DNA of 25,050 nt from a virus: the IMG/VR virus record IMGVR_UViG_3300025128_000310, positions 1-25,050 of that record; one strand, written 5' to 3'. Below, piece after piece: positions 12,011 through 19,143 of this stretch. The notes beneath the pieces are model-generated. The model saw nothing but the letters and a program-made list of their open reading frames with translations, made no database searches and had not been told where the DNA came from. Numbering within the stretch: the first letter of the stretch is position 1; every line of letters begins with the position of its first letter. The translations under genes and the position numbers were made by a program.

Positions 12011-12493
12011 CTAGCTTCCCGGGGTGAGTTCGGCGGTTTCCTCGGGAATGTTTGCCTTGTTTTCGAGTTGTTTTAACCGGGAGCGGAGTAAATCGCCTAT
12101 ATCTGTGCGTAAAGCTCCACCGTCAGCCCCGGCGAGTTCGACCTGTCGAGGAGCGTCTAGACCATTTAGGGCCGAGCGGCGAGCCGATACTCGGAGAGCG
12201 CTATTCACGGCGTGGATTACTGTTACCGGGTCACCTTTAGCTCCTTCGATCTGACTTATTGCTGTCCTCCATAGATAGTCGAGTCTCTCATTTTCAAGGA
12301 TTCTATGCTCCTCTACGGCTTCTCCTCCCCACATTTTAATAGCTTCGGTATACGCCGCCTTGGCTCCGCTTCTCCCGGCGTAGCCTACTCGGTCAGCTAT
12401 CTGCTGGAAAGATAAACCGATTGAACGCAGACGGACAACTTCCTCGTATTTAGCGAGGACTTCCGGCGTTTTATTGGTTTGTATCTTCGACAT
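12011..12493 (-). CDS. terS: Terminase small subunit
   Basis: This 160-aa protein is immediately upstream of terL. The N-terminus has a helix-turn-helix ('EEVVRLRSIGLSFQQIADRV', then 'GYAGRSGAKAAYTEAI'). The middle helices ('LENERLDYLWRTAISQ') would oligomerise, and 'SARRSALNGLDAPRQVELAG' is a phrase common in small terminases of phages of Gram-positive bacteria. It recognises the packaging site and loads DNA onto TerL. The phased repeats just downstream are its likely binding region (inference). Confidence 0.85.
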   Translation of the reverse strand: MSKIQTNKTPEVLAKYEEVVRLRSIGLSFQQIADRVGYAGRSGAKAAYTEAIKMWGGEAVEEHRILENERLDYLWRTAISQIEGAKGDPVTVIHAVNSALRVSARRSALNGLDAPRQVELAGADGGALRTDIGDLLRSRLKQLENKANIPEETAELTPGS

Positions 12494-12504
12494 TTGTACA
12501 GAGC

Positions 12505-13182
12505 CTAGTGTATTCCCGGTAATTTCTCAAAGATGTACCCGGCGAACTCTCCGACTTGTAGCCATTTAACGTATTCCCGGCGGAGGAGATGGGTTTCTAC
12601 GTCTACCGGACGTTGTACTCCTACGAGGGAAAGCTCCTTTTCGGCTATTTCGTTAAGGGTTATCCCTCCTATTTGCTTCTGTTTCATGGTCCAGCGGTGT
12701 ATTGTCGAGCCTAGATATCCTGAAGCGAGCGGTATTTTGTCTACAATTATGATCGCTCCTCCCGGGTTGAGTCGCTTATGTAGCTTATTTAAGAGGGTTT
12801 CCCGGCTGTTTACCGGGATAAACATTAATGTTAGGAATAGGACAGCGATATCGAAGTTCTCATATTCGTAGTCGAGAGCGTCCGCTATTAGGAGCTTTCC
12901 CGGCGCTTTGTACATTTCTTGCATCTCCCGGGCGCTTTCGATACCTATTAAGTCGATTCGGCGGGTTTCGACTGTTTCGGCTATCGAGCGGCCTATATTC
13001 CCGGTTGAGGCTCCTATGTCGTAGATTCTTCCCTTCTCCGGGGCGTAGGCTTTAATTAAGTGTGCGGTTCCGTGTGTCGCTAGATCGTACCAAGGGAGGG
13101 TTTCCCGAACGTGTGAGTCAAAGCGTTTAGCGACTTCCGGGTCTTTGAATGTCCAGTTCCCGGGGATCCATGAATCAGGCAT
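12505..13182 (-). CDS. CmoA-like SAM-dependent enzyme (putative carboxy-SAM synthase)
   Basis: This 225-aa class I methyltransferase fold most resembles CmoA over its whole length. It starts 'WTFKDPEVAKRFDSHVRETLPWYD' split as GNWTFKDPEVAKRF and SHVRETLPWYD, then motif I YDIGASTGNIG (~54-64), DLIGIES, 'FDIAVLFLTLMFIP', 'LHKRLNPGGAIIIVDK' and 'DVETHLLRREYVKWLQVGEF'. CmoA makes carboxy-SAM from SAM and prephenate. The residue I align with E. coli Arg199, which as I recall contacts the carboxylate, is Glu here (EIAEKELSL), so the product is not certain. The start overlaps the methyltransferase stop by 8 bases, implying coupling. A plain methyltransferase is the alternative. Confidence 0.72.
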   Translation of the reverse strand: MPDSWIPGNWTFKDPEVAKRFDSHVRETLPWYDLATHGTAHLIKAYAPEKGRIYDIGASTGNIGRSIAETVETRRIDLIGIESAREMQEMYKAPGKLLIADALDYEYENFDIAVLFLTLMFIPVNSRETLLNKLHKRLNPGGAIIIVDKIPLASGYLGSTIHRWTMKQKQIGGITLNEIAEKELSLVGVQRPVDVETHLLRREYVKWLQVGEFAGYIFEKLPGIH

Positions 13183-14320
13183 TGTCGAGTAATTCCTTTA
13201 CTTTTCCGGCGAGTTGCGCTGACATGAGAGGAGGGACCGCTCGGCCTATTCGCTCCCAGCGTTGTCGAAAGTTCCCGGTTAGCTTAAAATCATCAGGGAA
13301 TCCTCCAAGGCGGCGGAGTTCCAGAAGGGTAAATTTCCTTGGTTCGCTCGGGTGTGTTATCCCGGCGGCTCCGGTAGCTCCGGCTGTTTGCGTAATACAA
13401 GGGCATGTTTTCTCGGCATTAGCTCGGGTAAGGTTTAGGTATTTATTGCTTGATTCTCCCGGGCGTAGCTTCAGCCATTCATTGTAGATTGCGTAGGGTT
13501 CTTCAGGGTTTCTTCCTTGCCGGGAGATATCCGCCGATTCCCACTCGTTTCTGTCTCCCGGGTCTGGATGCCCGGAAGATAACGCTTTATCGAACCAGTC
13601 GCCGGGGAGCTTTCCGTATTCTCCCCGGTTCGTTATCCAAGGGCAAGCATCTCGTATCGAGTAGGTATATGGGAGGGGACTCGGCCACATAGGAGCCATA
13701 TTAAGGTCATTGCGTACTCCGTAGAAGAATAACCTCGTCCGGGTTTGTGGAACTCCTAAATAACGAGCATCGAGAACTTTAGCTTCGACTCGATACCCGC
13801 ATTCCTTTAATTCTTTAAGGATTAGCTTGAAATATCCCTTTGCGGATCCCTTTACTAACCCGGCGACATTCTCGGCTGTGAAGACTTTAGGCTGTAAACC
13901 CTTAAGGATCCGGGCGAACTCGAAGAACAAATCATCTGTTTGTTGGGCCGCTTCCGAGTATTTCTTGACTTTACCCCAGTCTTTTTCCCGGTTTCCGGAA
14001 GTCGAGAAGCTACTACACGGCGGAGATCCCTCCAAAACATCTACTTCCCCGGCGGATAACCCGGCGATTTCAAGGATATCTCCCGGCGTGACTTGTCGAA
14101 TATTGCGTGTATCTACCGGGACTCCCGGGTGATTAAGTTCGTATGTTTCCCGGGCTTCCTTAATAAATTCGTTGGCGTATCTAACTTCAAACCCGGCGAT
14201 TTCGTAACCCAAGCAGGCTCCGCCGCAACCGCTGAAAGTCGATATCAGGTTATATCCGCTCTGTCCTCGGAGCTTCTCGATCTCTTTCATAGATGGGACT
14301 ACATACGGTGGTTTCGTCAT
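13175..14320 (-). CDS. C5-cytosine DNA methyltransferase with Arg in motif X (putative DNA carboxymethyltransferase)
   Basis: This 381-aa protein has the C5-methyltransferase motifs in order: I ISTFSGCGGACLGYE (26-40); IV GSPPCSSFS with catalytic Cys102; VI ENV (150-152); VIII QTRTR (192-196); IX 'FTLLELRRLGGFPDDFK'; and X. Residues ~205-330 form the target-recognition region. Motif X reads ERIGRAVPP: the near-invariant Asn of GNAVPP is Arg360. In engineered M.MpeI, replacing this Asn with a basic residue confers carboxy-SAM use, the base pairing with the carboxylate. With CmoA-like and Asn-synthetase-like genes overlapping its two ends, I infer transfer of a carboxymethyl group to cytosine C5. 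The methyltransferase fold is certain; the group transferred is a hypothesis. Confidence 0.9.
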   Translation of the reverse strand: MTKPPYVVPSMKEIEKLRGQSGYNLISTFSGCGGACLGYEIAGFEVRYANEFIKEARETYELNHPGVPVDTRNIRQVTPGDILEIAGLSAGEVDVLEGSPPCSSFSTSGNREKDWGKVKKYSEAAQQTDDLFFEFARILKGLQPKVFTAENVAGLVKGSAKGYFKLILKELKECGYRVEAKVLDARYLGVPQTRTRLFFYGVRNDLNMAPMWPSPLPYTYSIRDACPWITNRGEYGKLPGDWFDKALSSGHPDPGDRNEWESADISRQGRNPEEPYAIYNEWLKLRPGESSNKYLNLTRANAEKTCPCITQTAGATGAAGITHPSEPRKFTLLELRRLGGFPDDFKLTGNFRQRWERIGRAVPPLMSAQLAGKVKELLDNA

Positions 14321-15159
14321 AGTTTCCCGGCTTTCGCTAATTTGTCGAGTTTATTCATTCCCGGGAGCGGAGACTTTGAACCGGGAGATAGCTCGGATAT
14401 TACGACTTTGGCGATTATTTCCGATATTCCGTTATCGCCGCTTTGTAAGTTTTGATGCACGTTGCTCGATATCCCTTCGACTTCCGGAAACTCTCTCCTT
14501 ACGACTTCCTTCTGTCTCGGTTTATTTACTTCATACCAGTCCTTCCCGGCGTACAAATCGAATATGCGCTTATCGAAATATGGGCATATTACATCTATTC
14601 CGTACTGCTTCGAGAGAATAGCCCGGCTGATTATCTGATTAACATCAGGCTTATTAAACATTTTGCGGCGATACTCCTGAAACTTCTCTCGAGTCTCACG
14701 GTAATGAATATAGGCTTCTTTGCTTAGCGCAAAGTGTCCGTCCGCTCCTATCCCGGTTGCAAGCGTAGATATCTTGACTTCCTGTAGCTTCGCAAAGGTA
14801 TCTATCCACGGAAACAAACAATCAACGGTTGTTTTCTTAAGTTTGAGATCATAGTTGCTTCCGGGTAATCGAAGAACTCTGATGACTTCCTCTACCCGGC
14901 GGAGGACCGGCTCGGGAAGAACCGGGAGAAATACCGGAATAAACTCCAAACCGAACTTTCGAGCGAGTCCCCGAGCGGTTCTAAAGTCTTTCGATTGCCT
15001 ATCAGCGAGCGTGAAGCTAATCACAGAAACTTCCTTATCGCAGTCAAGGGCCGCTATTAGTATGCTAGCGCTATCTATACCGGAGGAAGTAGCTACGGCG
15101 AGCTTATCGGGGAGCGGAGAGATAATATCCTGAAGGATGGGCCGTATTTCAGAACTCAT
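14317..15159 (-). CDS. Asparagine-synthetase-like PP-loop ATPase
   Basis: This 280-aa protein has its start at ATG 15159, inside the ParB-like gene's last codons (11-base overlap). A reading from 15243 overlaps that gene far more. It has a PP-loop TSSGIDSAS (24-32), a second nucleotide motif GIGADGHF (136-143, as in GxGADE of AsnB) and 'CPYFDKRIFDLYAG'. This is the synthetase half only: no N-terminal glutaminase Cys domain is present, so the nitrogen donor would be ammonia, an amine or a partner. The family adenylates a carboxylate and makes an amide. It overlaps the methyltransferase start as ATGA. The inferred substrate is carboxymethylcytosine in DNA. Confidence 0.8.
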   Translation of the reverse strand: MSSEIRPILQDIISPLPDKLAVATSSGIDSASILIAALDCDKEVSVISFTLADRQSKDFRTARGLARKFGLEFIPVFLPVLPEPVLRRVEEVIRVLRLPGSNYDLKLKKTTVDCLFPWIDTFAKLQEVKISTLATGIGADGHFALSKEAYIHYRETREKFQEYRRKMFNKPDVNQIISRAILSKQYGIDVICPYFDKRIFDLYAGKDWYEVNKPRQKEVVRREFPEVEGISSNVHQNLQSGDNGISEIIAKVVISELSPGSKSPLPGMNKLDKLAKAGKL

Positions 15160-15643
15160 ATCCACACTTAGGGCAGGTGTTATTTGTTTCGATATCATCA
15201 CCGAAACTCGGGAAGTCTCCCGGGTCACCGTCACTAAGGTCATTAATTAAATCATCAAGGTCATCCGTATCGAACCCGGTTCCGATTAAGTCTCCATCCT
15301 CTATGGCTATTCCTCGGAGGATATCGAGGAGAGCGTGATCATCGTAACTAGCTAGGTCTGATGTTTTGTTATCGGCGAGGAGAATCTTCCGGGCTTCCTT
15401 ATCGTCTACATCTACCCAGAACACTGGCACTTCTTCTATCCCGGCGGCGATAGCCGCTTGAAGTCTGTGGTTCCCGGCGAGAACCCGAGAGGAGTTCCGT
15501 TGAACAACGAGCGTACCGTAGAAGCCATTCTCTTGTATAGAGGTTACTATCGCTCCGATATCTCCCTGCCGGGGATTATCCGGATGTATCTCTAACTTCT
15601 TCACAGATACATATTCAACCGGCGCTTTACTGCGGCCCACCAT
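15149..15643 (-). CDS. ParB-like nuclease-domain protein
   Basis: Residues ~8-105 of this 164-aa protein form a ParB/sulfiredoxin-like domain: 'VKKLEIHPDNPRQGDIGAIV', 'IQENGFYGTLVVQRNSSRVL', AGNHRLQAA (the G-x-R-x motif of this fold), 'VPVFWVDVDDKEARKILLAD'. An acidic linker follows, then NTCPKCGYEF at the end, half of a zinc ribbon. Phage proteins of this type often accompany DNA methyltransferases. This one opens the modification cluster with a good ribosome site (AAAAAGGAGAGAATATG). It may bind or nick DNA, or guide the modification enzymes (inference). Confidence 0.85.
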   Translation of the reverse strand: MVGRSKAPVEYVSVKKLEIHPDNPRQGDIGAIVTSIQENGFYGTLVVQRNSSRVLAGNHRLQAAIAAGIEEVPVFWVDVDDKEARKILLADNKTSDLASYDDHALLDILRGIAIEDGDLIGTGFDTDDLDDLINDLSDGDPGDFPSFGDDIETNNTCPKCGYEF

Positions 15644-16526: not shown

Positions 16527-16861
16527 TAGCTCCTCCCGGGCGGTGCGGATTTAATTAAGCCCAGCTTCTTCGCTTCGCCAACGTTATCATGTACCCAACG
16601 ATGACACATACGACAGATAGCAACGGAGTTCTCGACATCTAAGATAGAACCACCGAGGGAGCGGAGGATAGGCTCGTGTAACTCTGTCGAGTATCTCGTA
16701 CAAACTTCCGGAATCCTAGCTTCGCAGAATTGTCTCTTATCGAGTTCTTCCTTAACGAAAGCCCGGCGCTTTGTATTCGTTTTGGCTCGCTTCTTGCTAA
16801 CCGGGTTGAGGGAACCGCTCCGCCGCAGAGGTGTTTTCCGTTTGAGCGGAGTTCTTTTCAT
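16526..16861 (-). CDS. HNH endonuclease
   Basis: This 111-aa protein starts ATG 16861, overlapping the upstream stop as ATGA; a GTG at 16870 is possible but less likely. The basic N-terminus (MKRTPLKRKTPLRRSGS) is seen in many small phage HNH proteins. The HNH core is FCEARIPEVC, 'TELHEPILRSLGG', then 'NSVAICRMCHRWVHDN', with two Cys pairs for zinc and the paired His. Roles include packaging-linked nicking or homing; its place beside RusA suggests DNA processing. The distance from terminase argues against a terminase-associated HNH. Confidence 0.85.
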   Translation of the reverse strand: MKRTPLKRKTPLRRSGSLNPVSKKRAKTNTKRRAFVKEELDKRQFCEARIPEVCTRYSTELHEPILRSLGGSILDVENSVAICRMCHRWVHDNVGEAKKLGLIKSAPPGRS

Positions 16862-17691
16862 ATCCCGCACATACCTTCACATTCTTGGTCGAACAAGGAG
16901 TATTGTCCTAAATCTTCTTCATTGCGGAAATCTATTTGGTCTAAAGGTATGCAAGCCCTATGCAAATACGGAGTTCCATTAATCGTTGCTAATTGCGTCC
17001 CGGGGAGTGGATTTTGCATACGCTTTTCAAACTCTACTGCGTCATTAAATGCTTCGATATCTTCATGTTTCATTCGCCGCCATTCTTTATCGCTGTGATA
17101 GGGGCAACCGATACAAGCACTTCTTGGTGGTGGCGGATATCCGTGATTTTTAATCCACACCAAACAATCGTGTCGTGTCATCCGCAGATCAATAAGTGGA
17201 TATTCGTTTGTAATAAATTTAAGTTGATTGTCTTTCATTCTTTGTATTTCGTCAAGCGATATGCCCATTACGTTAGTTATTTCACCATTTTCAGGTTTCC
17301 ATTTCTCTCCGGGAGCTAGTCCAATAATTTCTCTTTCTTTCTTCTGGACTGGAATTACCTTGTATTCAGTTGTGCATTGTCTCCGGAGTGTCCCGGTTGT
17401 TCCATCCTCTCCTTTAGTAAAGACTGGAATTGAAGCGTGTCTTTTCCCAAGTAAAATATCTTGTTTGATATTTCCATAATTCTTGTCGCTTTTTACCTTA
17501 TGAAATTTGATACCTGCCGCTCGAAGTTTCGGAATTAACCACTCTAAATGCTTGTAAACATCGGGTGGCTCCCAACCAGTATCAGCAAATATTGCATGTT
17601 CTATTGGGGCGATTTCTTTATGAATTGCAAGCAACGCAACAGTAGTAGACTGTACGCCAGCTCCTAGAGATAATATACGTGTTGCTTTCAT
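16858..17691 (-). CDS. PAPS-reductase-like PP-loop protein
   Basis: This 277-aa protein begins 'ATRILSLGAGVQSTTVALLA', where SLGAGVQST is the PP-loop that binds ATP. It continues 'HAIFADTGWEPPDVYKHLEW', 'TLRRQCTTEYKVIPVQKKER' and the Cys motif SACIGCPYHSDKEWRRM. The family is frequent in phages of Actinobacteria and is annotated as phosphoadenosine phosphosulfate reductase, but a sulfate role is unproven. The fold adenylates substrates for sulfur or amine transfer, and the Cys residues could bind a metal or Fe-S cluster. It is not an obvious DndC: no other dnd genes are present. It may modify a nucleic acid alongside the neighbouring methyltransferase (inference). Confidence 0.8.
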   Translation of the reverse strand: MKATRILSLGAGVQSTTVALLAIHKEIAPIEHAIFADTGWEPPDVYKHLEWLIPKLRAAGIKFHKVKSDKNYGNIKQDILLGKRHASIPVFTKGEDGTTGTLRRQCTTEYKVIPVQKKEREIIGLAPGEKWKPENGEITNVMGISLDEIQRMKDNQLKFITNEYPLIDLRMTRHDCLVWIKNHGYPPPPRSACIGCPYHSDKEWRRMKHEDIEAFNDAVEFEKRMQNPLPGTQLATINGTPYLHRACIPLDQIDFRNEEDLGQYSLFDQECEGMCGI

Positions 17692-17903
17692 TGCCCTTCA
17701 ACTCCATAATATGATCTCATGATCGGCCAACAGAAATCTCGGGAACCGTATTGCTCAACATATTCCATATAAAGAGGGAAGTCGCCCGGGGCTACCGTGT
17801 CGTGATTCTCGCAGTAGACATCGGAACAGTAACCCTTCTCGATTCCTTCCGCAAGCCACCTATAATAATCTTTCTCAGTTGGTTTCTTTGTTGGTTTTCT
17901 CAT
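17688..17903 (-). CDS. Small Cys/His phage protein (71 aa)
   Basis: The central stretch is 'WLAEGIEKGYCSDVYCENHD', then FCWPIMRSYYG near the end. The W..DGI..G.CS...C..HD pattern recurs in small proteins of actinobacterial phages; its function is unknown. The Cys/His set could bind zinc. It overlaps the stop of the second methyltransferase by 29 bases and the start of the PP-loop gene by 4, so it sits within a coupled string. Confidence 0.75.
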   Translation of the reverse strand: MRKPTKKPTEKDYYRWLAEGIEKGYCSDVYCENHDTVAPGDFPLYMEYVEQYGSRDFCWPIMRSYYGVEGQ

Positions 17904-19143
17904 TGCTAGTTACCCTCTCCAATAGTATTGCATAAGCACGTTCGGCTTGCTGTGGGACTACGCCATTCCCTAGTAGTTCAAGCTTCCGGGTATATGACAA
18001 ATCAACGCCAGTTACCCAGCGCGGCGGAACTCCCATCATCCATTCGATAAACTCGGGAGAAACTTTAATTGATCCATTCTCGTGGTGATATGTTAAATCC
18101 TCTGGGACTCTCCGGTTCAGAACAGCTTCCCATCGTCCGATTGCTGGGCCGTATTCTTTGTATTTTCCCAATCTTCCCGAGCTATCTCCCACATTATTAC
18201 CGCCGGGAGAACTCTCTTTTTCGCTTGTCTCTCGTAATCCACTTCTGGTGTGTTGTCCTTCGGATCCTTCGCCGTGGGAGTCGGAAGGAGCTTCGTGATA
18301 GATCCGTATTCCTGTATGTGGCGCTGGAGATCCTCGACCGATAGTTTGCTCCCATCGTCTAATTGCTGGTTGATATCGTTCAAAAGACGATCCAGAAAGA
18401 CTAAATCGTTCAGGTTCACTCGTAGGAGTCCTGTTGATCCCGGCTTCCTCCCTGTCCCGGTAGCCATCCCCGATGTCAAACTCCTCCCCTGTCCGGTTGT
18501 CGGAGTCGGCAAAAGTTCTAGATGCGCCAAGACTCCCTGCACGTTTACTGTCCCCTTCGCTCCACTCGGTCGTTTGCCATCTCCTGTCCTCCCGGAGTAG
18601 TCCGGCGATTTCCTTGCGTCCCGGTTCGTCATCGTTGGTAGCAACGCAAAACCATCGCTCTCGTTTATGTGGGGCTCCGACATCACTCGCTCGAATAACA
18701 AGCCACTCCCATCTGATGTAACCGTTTTCGGCCAACGCTTCACAGACTCGTCCCATAGCTTCTCCGTTGTTAGCGGTAAGTATGGCTCCGACATTTTCGA
18801 GGAGGAGGTATCTTGCTCCAGCAAGCCGGGCAACTTTGCAAACATCCGATATGAGCCATCTTTCATCTTTAACTCCTTTTCGTAAACCGCCTGTACTAAC
18901 CGGCTGACAAGGAAAGCCTGCGGTGACGATATCAACTTTCTCCGGTTCAAATAGTTGTTGTGATATTTCTGTCAGATCTCCTAAATTCGGTATGTTCCCG
19001 AATCTTTCCTTAATTACTTTGTCGCTCCCGGGGCAGATGTCAGAGAACCAAACCATTTCGGTGTCGAGGATATTTCTTAACCCCAGTTCGATTCCTCCGT
19101 AACCGGCACAAAGCGCTCCTACTGACAAACCCAATGTTGCCAT
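17875..19143 (-). CDS. C5-cytosine DNA methyltransferase (Dcm-like), second copy
   Basis: In this 422-aa protein, motif I is LCAGYGGIELGLR (11-23), IV GFPCQPVS with catalytic Cys79, VI ENV (116-118), VIII 'APHKRERWFCVA', and X LLGNGVVPQQAERAY with the normal Asn393. 'SPEFIEWMMGVPPRWVTG' precedes motif X, typical of phage enzymes. Residues ~170-340 are a variable, low-complexity recognition region. It should therefore be an ordinary SAM-dependent enzyme. GCAGGAGG abuts ATG 19143; TTG at 19134 is better spaced and would remove MAT. The middle of the gene also holds a long ORF in another frame. Confidence 0.92.
   Translation of the reverse strand: MATLGLSVGALCAGYGGIELGLRNILDTEMVWFSDICPGSDKVIKERFGNIPNLGDLTEISQQLFEPEKVDIVTAGFPCQPVSTGGLRKGVKDERWLISDVCKVARLAGARYLLLENVGAILTANNGEAMGRVCEALAENGYIRWEWLVIRASDVGAPHKRERWFCVATNDDEPGRKEIAGLLREDRRWQTTEWSEGDSKRAGSLGASRTFADSDNRTGEEFDIGDGYRDREEAGINRTPTSEPERFSLSGSSFERYQPAIRRWEQTIGRGSPAPHTGIRIYHEAPSDSHGEGSEGQHTRSGLRETSEKESSPGGNNVGDSSGRLGKYKEYGPAIGRWEAVLNRRVPEDLTYHHENGSIKVSPEFIEWMMGVPPRWVTGVDLSYTRKLELLGNGVVPQQAERAYAILLERVTSNEKTNKETN
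18117..18866 (-). CDS. Overlapping ORF with LLPTPT repeats inside the second methyltransferase
   Basis: This 249-codon ORF lies in another frame of the methyltransferase gene. It has its own ATG at 18866 and a strong ribosome site (AAAAGGAGTTAAAGATG). The product contains 'RWPKTVTSDGSGLLFERVM', 'FALLPTMTNRDARKS', 'LELLPTPTTGQGRSLTSG' and 'KLLPTPTAKDPKDNTP'. Proteins built of LLPTPTxxD modules are annotated in many phages beside or within C5-methyltransferases. Because 'ADSD' in the enzyme frame reads as 'PTPT' one frame over, the likeness could be a by-product of the enzyme's own conservation. It could also extend to TTG at 18950. Confidence 0.4.
   Translation of the reverse strand: MKDGSYRMFAKLPGLLEQDTSSSKMSEPYLPLTTEKLWDESVKRWPKTVTSDGSGLLFERVMSEPHINESDGFALLPTMTNRDARKSPDYSGRTGDGKRPSGAKGTVNVQGVLAHLELLPTPTTGQGRSLTSGMATGTGRKPGSTGLLRVNLNDLVFLDRLLNDINQQLDDGSKLSVEDLQRHIQEYGSITKLLPTPTAKDPKDNTPEVDYERQAKKRVLPAVIMWEIAREDWENTKNTAQQSDDGKLF

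Follow-up and report, generated by a model that had tools for sequence, protein, structure and literature searches.

A putative phage CmoX with a motif X arginine is encoded beside a divergent CmoA-like protein

Genes of the cassette and its surroundings

We analysed a viral stretch of 25,050 nucleotides, hereafter the window, which holds the full set of genes published for a DNA-modification cassette, encoding ParBc, CmoY, CmoX and CmoA (Table 1). The frames overlap by 11, 4 and 8 nt in this order, the last overlap joining cmoX to the cmoA-like gene, and are followed by genes for the probable small and the large terminase subunit. The CmoA/CmoX/CmoY system was first described in 2025 (PMC12783734). 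In the system of Synechococcus phage S-B43, Cx-SAM is supplied by CmoA, glycine is ligated by CmoY, and ParBc genes are often adjacent (PMC12783734). The ParBc-CmoY-CmoX-CmoA order next to terminase differs from that of S-B43, where the genes run A-Y-X near a primase-helicase, and the window order recurs in relatives. Moraxella phage Mcat8 has a similar ParBc-CmoX-CmoA arrangement next to terminase, with no match to CmoY within the stretch searched. Streptomyces phage TurkishDelight encodes a CmoX 50% identical to that of the window, but there the ligase includes a glutamine amidotransferase domain, and position 203 of CmoA is Arg.

Table 1 Features of the window discussed in the text.
Feature	Position	Strand	Evidence
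Terminase large subunit, phage context	10623..11948	-	PF03237 1.8e-25, PF17289
Probable small terminase subunit, immediately downstream of cmoA	12011..12493	-	Position before TerL; phrog_645 (profile annotated 'RNase E')
cmoA-like gene, probable Cx-SAM synthase, class III, 225 aa	12505..13182	-	phmmer 4gek 1.4e-18; AF2 fold; class from alignment
cmoX, predicted DNA cytosine-C5-carboxymethyltransferase, 381 aa	13175..14320	-	PF00145; best PDB match 8YF3, sequence and fold
Arg360 codon CGA, motif X (SpCmoX Arg350, HhaI Asn304)	13241..13243	-	Alignments; PMC12783734
Ser122, conserved throughout viral-contig CmoX with linked CmoA; four bacterial copies have Gly; substituted in Asn/CmoA-minus viral sisters	13955..13957	-	Alignments
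Catalytic Cys102 with Ser103 and Ser104, motif IV SPPCSS (Ser103 = HhaI Gln82)	14009..14017	-	Alignments; PMC10666283 for HhaI Q82 role
cmoY, asparagine-synthetase-type ATP-dependent amide ligase, 280 aa	14317..15159	-	PF00733 8.6e-6; tblastn S-B43 CmoY 6e-25; profile vs asparagine synthetases 1.3e-10
ParBc-domain gene, recurrent cmoX neighbour	15149..15643	-	PF02195 6.2e-7; PMC12783734
Second C5-methyltransferase, ordinary methyltransferase, motif X LGNGVVP, PCQ	17875..19143	-	PF00145 2.1e-37

CmoY of the window consists of an ATP-pyrophosphatase domain (PF00733) with an SSGIDS loop and shares about 31–32% identity with SpCmoY, with an insert after residue 100. Domain searches found no glutaminase domain in it, and its similarity to asparagine synthetases is to their synthetase domain. 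An alternative start, ATG at 15243, would overlap the ParBc gene by 95 nt. At two related loci (L015 and L021) CmoY has the P-loop SSGISS, in which the Asp of SGGxDS is missing, and from this sequence change these two ligases may be inactive or altered.

The second C5-methyltransferase was considered as a second carboxymethyltransferase and rejected, since it has PCQ and GN; its retention of GN had been pointed out in the first-pass annotation. Wholly within this gene, in another frame, lies a 277-aa open reading frame (18117–18950, minus strand) which matches PHROG 1008 (E 6e-12). The same profile also matches the C-terminus of the methyltransferase, and the region is probably dual-coding. 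A PAPS-reductase-type (PP-loop) gene (16858–17691, minus strand) is located between the cassette and the second methyltransferase.

Word counts gave no answer as to the DNA target of CmoX. In positions 1–25,050 CGCG is avoided (5 against 94 expected) and CCGG is enriched (266 against 190 expected from trinucleotides), most densely around the modification cassette, but close relatives avoid other palindromes, namely CCGG and GGCC in L011 and L012, and AGCT in L013 (0 against 54 expected). Verrucomicrobia MAGs (L374–L376, L387–L398, L401, L426, L435) carry many CmoX copies per genome, with terminase- and portal-like genes present in L392, and these multi-copy loci look like a prophage family.

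The motif X arginine and its natural controls

The cmoX frame is open throughout, and PF00145 covers residues 24–375 of the product (E 6.6e-58). The best phmmer match in the PDB is 8YF3 (1.1e-64), which also ranks first in a Foldseek search (E 1.4e-29, TM 0.74/0.84) with the AF2 model (mean pLDDT 87.4); confidence in the model is low at residues 103–112 and 119–127, the stretches that include Ser103 and Ser122. The 8YF3 structure is that of CmoX from S-B43 (SpCmoX), a Cx-SAM-dependent DNA cytosine-C5-carboxymethyltransferase (PMC12783734). The crystal contains Cx-SAM, the carboxylate of which is contacted by Arg350, in place of HhaI Asn304. Wild-type SpCmoX accepts Cx-SAM as its sole cofactor, and the R350N mutant is inactive with both cofactors (PMC12783734).

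Residue 360 of the window enzyme lies in the motif X context ERIGRAVPPLM. In HMMER pairwise alignments Arg360 falls on the Asn within M.HaeIII IGNAVP and on that of plant DNMT1, bearing out the Asn to Arg change read in the first-pass annotation, and alignment to 8YF3 places it on the Arg of VGRMVPP. Chance or sequencing error as the origin of Arg360 was ruled out by an identical protein on two further contigs and by the invariance of the column. The remaining catalytic motifs had been described as intact, which is the case for Cys102 (SPPC), Glu150 (ENV) and Arg194 (QTRTR), but motif IV reads PCS where PCQ is usual, a Ser that the first-pass annotation had listed without remark.

The authors of the CmoX study searched for an SPPC motif together with Arg at the SpCmoX Arg350 position (PMC12783734), and the window enzyme has SPPC at residues 99–102 and Arg360. 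Comparison of the two proteins reveals that the SpCmoX Cx-SAM-binding residues Phe25, Glu47, Phe48, Asp69, Cys98 and Arg350 are kept as Phe29, Glu51, Phe52, Asp73, Cys102 and Arg360, with the first four of these binding the adenine and ribose. The whole fold, the small residue after the catalytic Cys and the cassette with CmoA and CmoY are also shared, whereas the sequences are 39% identical over the alignment, the SpCmoX target is GC, and the partner CmoA is of another class. The earlier proposal of a natural carboxy-SAM user, drawn from the motif X Arg and the CmoA-like neighbor, is right in its cofactor and residue, the chemistry having been demonstrated for the S-B43 orthologue; as a class, the discovery is already published (PMC12783734). 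The proposal left out the amide ligase (CmoY) and ParBc genes, which make the cassette complete. By analogy, the suggested return of methyl transfer in an Arg360Asn mutant would likely fail, because SpCmoX R350N accepted neither cofactor.

We compared these positions to those of engineered enzymes. M.MpeI N374K, an engineered carboxymethyltransferase, likewise carries a basic side chain at this position of motif X, as described in PMC12783734, from which the equivalence of Asn374 to Arg360 is taken. The window enzyme differs in being natural, in having Arg instead of Lys and in the additional replacement of the motif IV Gln; the M.MpeI target is CG. In HhaI, Gln82 of motif IV and Asn304 of motif X are the two conserved positions that have been engineered so that bulkier groups can be transferred (PMC10666283). 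The enlarged-pocket M.HhaI Q82A/N304A variants (PMC10666283) are changed at the same two positions as the window enzyme, which has Gln to Ser and Asn to Arg, but the natural enzyme gains a charge partner rather than only losing bulk.

Viral-contig loci were gathered with CmoX queries and grouped by their motif X residue, giving 84 distinct Arg enzymes and 8 Asn enzymes. CmoA was present within the fetched locus for 81/84 Arg enzymes versus 0/8 Asn enzymes (Fisher 1.8e-9). Searches of whole contigs increased the former to 83/84, resolving two of the three exceptions (one CmoA lies ~15 kb away, one is a fragment at a contig end), and found no CmoA on the contigs of the Asn enzymes, which are up to 46 kb long, although three span only ~4 kb. 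When an additional query derived from the Asn enzymes was used and genomes of bacteria and archaea were scanned as well, CmoA accompanied 95/99 Arg versus 0/9 Asn enzymes in viruses, and 34/38 versus 0/1 in the bacterial and archaeal set. The Arg is invariant in CmoX-clade members that have CmoA in the locus and a readable motif X, the distant Staphylococcus group excepted, and its position beside a CmoA-like gene is not chance, in agreement with the earlier view that chance is unlikely. Arg/Asn changes occur about 4 times on the tree, of which 2 are on well-supported branches, and a formal phylogenetic test of the link was not significant, there being too few independent changes. Thus, the Arg-CmoA link is strong as a count and weak as independent events.

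The two groups also differ elsewhere in the protein. The residue following the catalytic Cys is Ala, Ser, Cys or Val in Arg enzymes versus Gln or Val in Asn enzymes. Ser122 is present in all viral-contig Arg enzymes and replaced in the nine viral Asn enzymes, the exceptions being four bacterial Arg copies with Gly and one archaeal Asn enzyme that retains Ser. Since motif X, the post-Cys residue and Ser122 differ between sisters according to the presence of CmoA, the cofactor switch is testable by swapping these three residues. Such natural controls are absent from the main text of PMC12783734, as is the word 'Gln', and a role for the motif IV residue in the switch may be unreported. Asn enzymes from six loci (L086, L093, L098, L104, L469, L474) lie inside or beside the carboxymethyl clade, mostly with ParBc and with no CmoA, and appear from their sequences to be plain methyltransferases.

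Arg at motif X is not strictly required, because the C5-methyltransferases beside CmoA in Staphylococcus phages (L005, L006, L365–L368) have Gly in the motif (VGGVIN), with PCQ kept. Next to its CmoA and CmoY genes, the L367 contig carries a separate gene for an HhaI-like enzyme whose motif X has Arg and whose motif IV reads PCF; here the switch seems to have arisen independently. The statement that GN is almost always found in motif X was too strong in view of this Gly and of a control clade of related phage C5-methyltransferases, which has Met in 79/79 sequences and no CmoA. This Met clade (L285–L364; Flavobacterium and Cellulophaga phages) is large and has SPPCS at motif IV.

The CmoA-like partner

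The AF2 model of the cmoA-like product has its top match in E. coli CmoA (Foldseek 3.3e-16; VIA Z 25.6, rmsd 2.2, 215 aligned). The CmoA fold is supported by the top structural matches, 4gek, 1im8 and 4iwn at Z about 25, followed by CysG(N-16), 3dtn and BelI at about 23; E. coli CmoA is nearest by sequence, profile and fold, with small-molecule methyltransferases of the CysG(N-16)/BelI group close behind. The protein shares its fold and SAM-site residues of the Asp62/Ser66/Asp89 type with E. coli CmoA (4GEK, 4IWN), but is ~25% identical to it, has new invariant Arg residues at 179 and 207, its own Arg163 and Arg191, and has Glu at the position of Arg199, the residue by which the E. coli enzyme holds the Cx-SAM carboxylate (PMC3663124). 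The register at Arg199 was checked in two independent alignments and a 207-sequence alignment.

Three patterns were found among 206 distinct CmoA sequences: Arg or Lys at 199 (86 sequences), Arg at 203 without 199 (13), and class III (105), which includes the window protein. The second pattern contains S-B43 CmoA, a proven Cx-SAM synthase with Glu at 199. Class III has Glu in place of the salt-bridge residue at 199, Arg at 179 and Gln-Arg-Pro at 206–208 in 105/105 sequences (E. coli numbering), with Asp for Glu164 in 103/105 and Phe or Tyr for Asn132. The term 'R199' is absent from the main text of PMC12783734, and the Arg199 point may be unreported.

The CmoA class changes 14 times on the CmoX tree, class III and canonical forms alternating beside similar CmoX, and no cofactor-pocket column of CmoX separates enzymes with a class III partner from those with a canonical partner. 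This repeated replacement, together with the indistinguishable pocket columns, argues that all CmoA classes would make the same cofactor. The window protein is predicted to be CmoA-like and to work like CmoA, without being a canonical CmoA. We tentatively suggest, as the less probable case, that class III, which is common in phages, has another carboxylate-binding site (Arg 207 or 179, not 199) and possibly a carboxyl donor other than prephenate. If so, much of the phage 5cxmC world would run on an uncharacterised route to Cx-SAM or to a relative of Cx-SAM.

Proposed pathway and its meaning

We propose that the four-gene set very probably serves to place an acidic carboxymethyl group on cytosines of the phage's own DNA and to cap it with an amine, with the cmoX product acting as the phage CmoX. 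CmoA would carboxylate SAM to give Cx-SAM. CmoX would then flip the cytosine out for attack by Cys102 on C6 and use Cx-SAM to carboxymethylate C5; Arg360 would hold the carboxylate, for which the small Ser103 would give room. CmoY would activate the carboxylate with ATP and join it to an amine, which, given the lack of a glutaminase domain, is probably an amino acid such as glycine. The end product would be a hypermodified cytosine that shields the phage DNA from host nucleases. This work establishes the set of genes, the residues, the folds and the associations with phylogeny and context, and the chemistry of each step comes from S-B43 orthologues studied by others. That the window proteins act in the same way is inferred, as are the protective role, the amine and the sequence targeted.

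An ordinary SAM-dependent C5-methyltransferase, in which the motif X Arg is neutral or tunes affinity while the CmoA-like and ligase genes act elsewhere, would fit the full set of catalytic methyltransferase motifs and the tolerance of motif X, with its Met in 79/79 members of a large related clade and its Gly in Staphylococcus phages. We consider this highly improbable: the Arg tracks CmoA in 83/84 cases whereas the Asn sisters have none, the motif IV Gln and Ser122 switch together with motif X, and wild-type SpCmoX takes Cx-SAM only (PMC12783734).

The cassette may also work as proposed up to the nature of the group transferred, which would perhaps not be carboxymethyl if class III CmoA yields another acidic SAM derivative or uses a donor other than prephenate. 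The class III substitutions at Arg199, Glu164 and Asn132 and the invariant Arg at 179 and 207 are in line with such a change, but the 14 class changes on the CmoX tree, the pocket columns that fail to separate the groups and the proven Cx-SAM synthase of S-B43, itself with Glu at 199 and Arg at 203, make it improbable. It is distinctly possible, if not the favored outcome, that CmoY ligates another amine or free ammonia instead of glycine, leading to a different end product. Several ligase clusters have distinct active sites (Yang et al., PMC12783734), and the alignment gives only 31% identity between SpCmoY and the window ligase, with its insert after residue 100; the missing glutaminase domain makes ammonia from glutamine unlikely.

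The Arg/Asn split with CmoA, the swapping of class III CmoA with canonical CmoA and the finding that the Arg is not universal are additions to the main text of PMC12783734. The interest beyond the published discovery lies in a three-residue switch with natural controls and in an uncharacterised CmoA class, which is a concrete gap. The window adds one more independent case, at the sequence level, for 5-carboxymethylcytosine being a natural base of phages.
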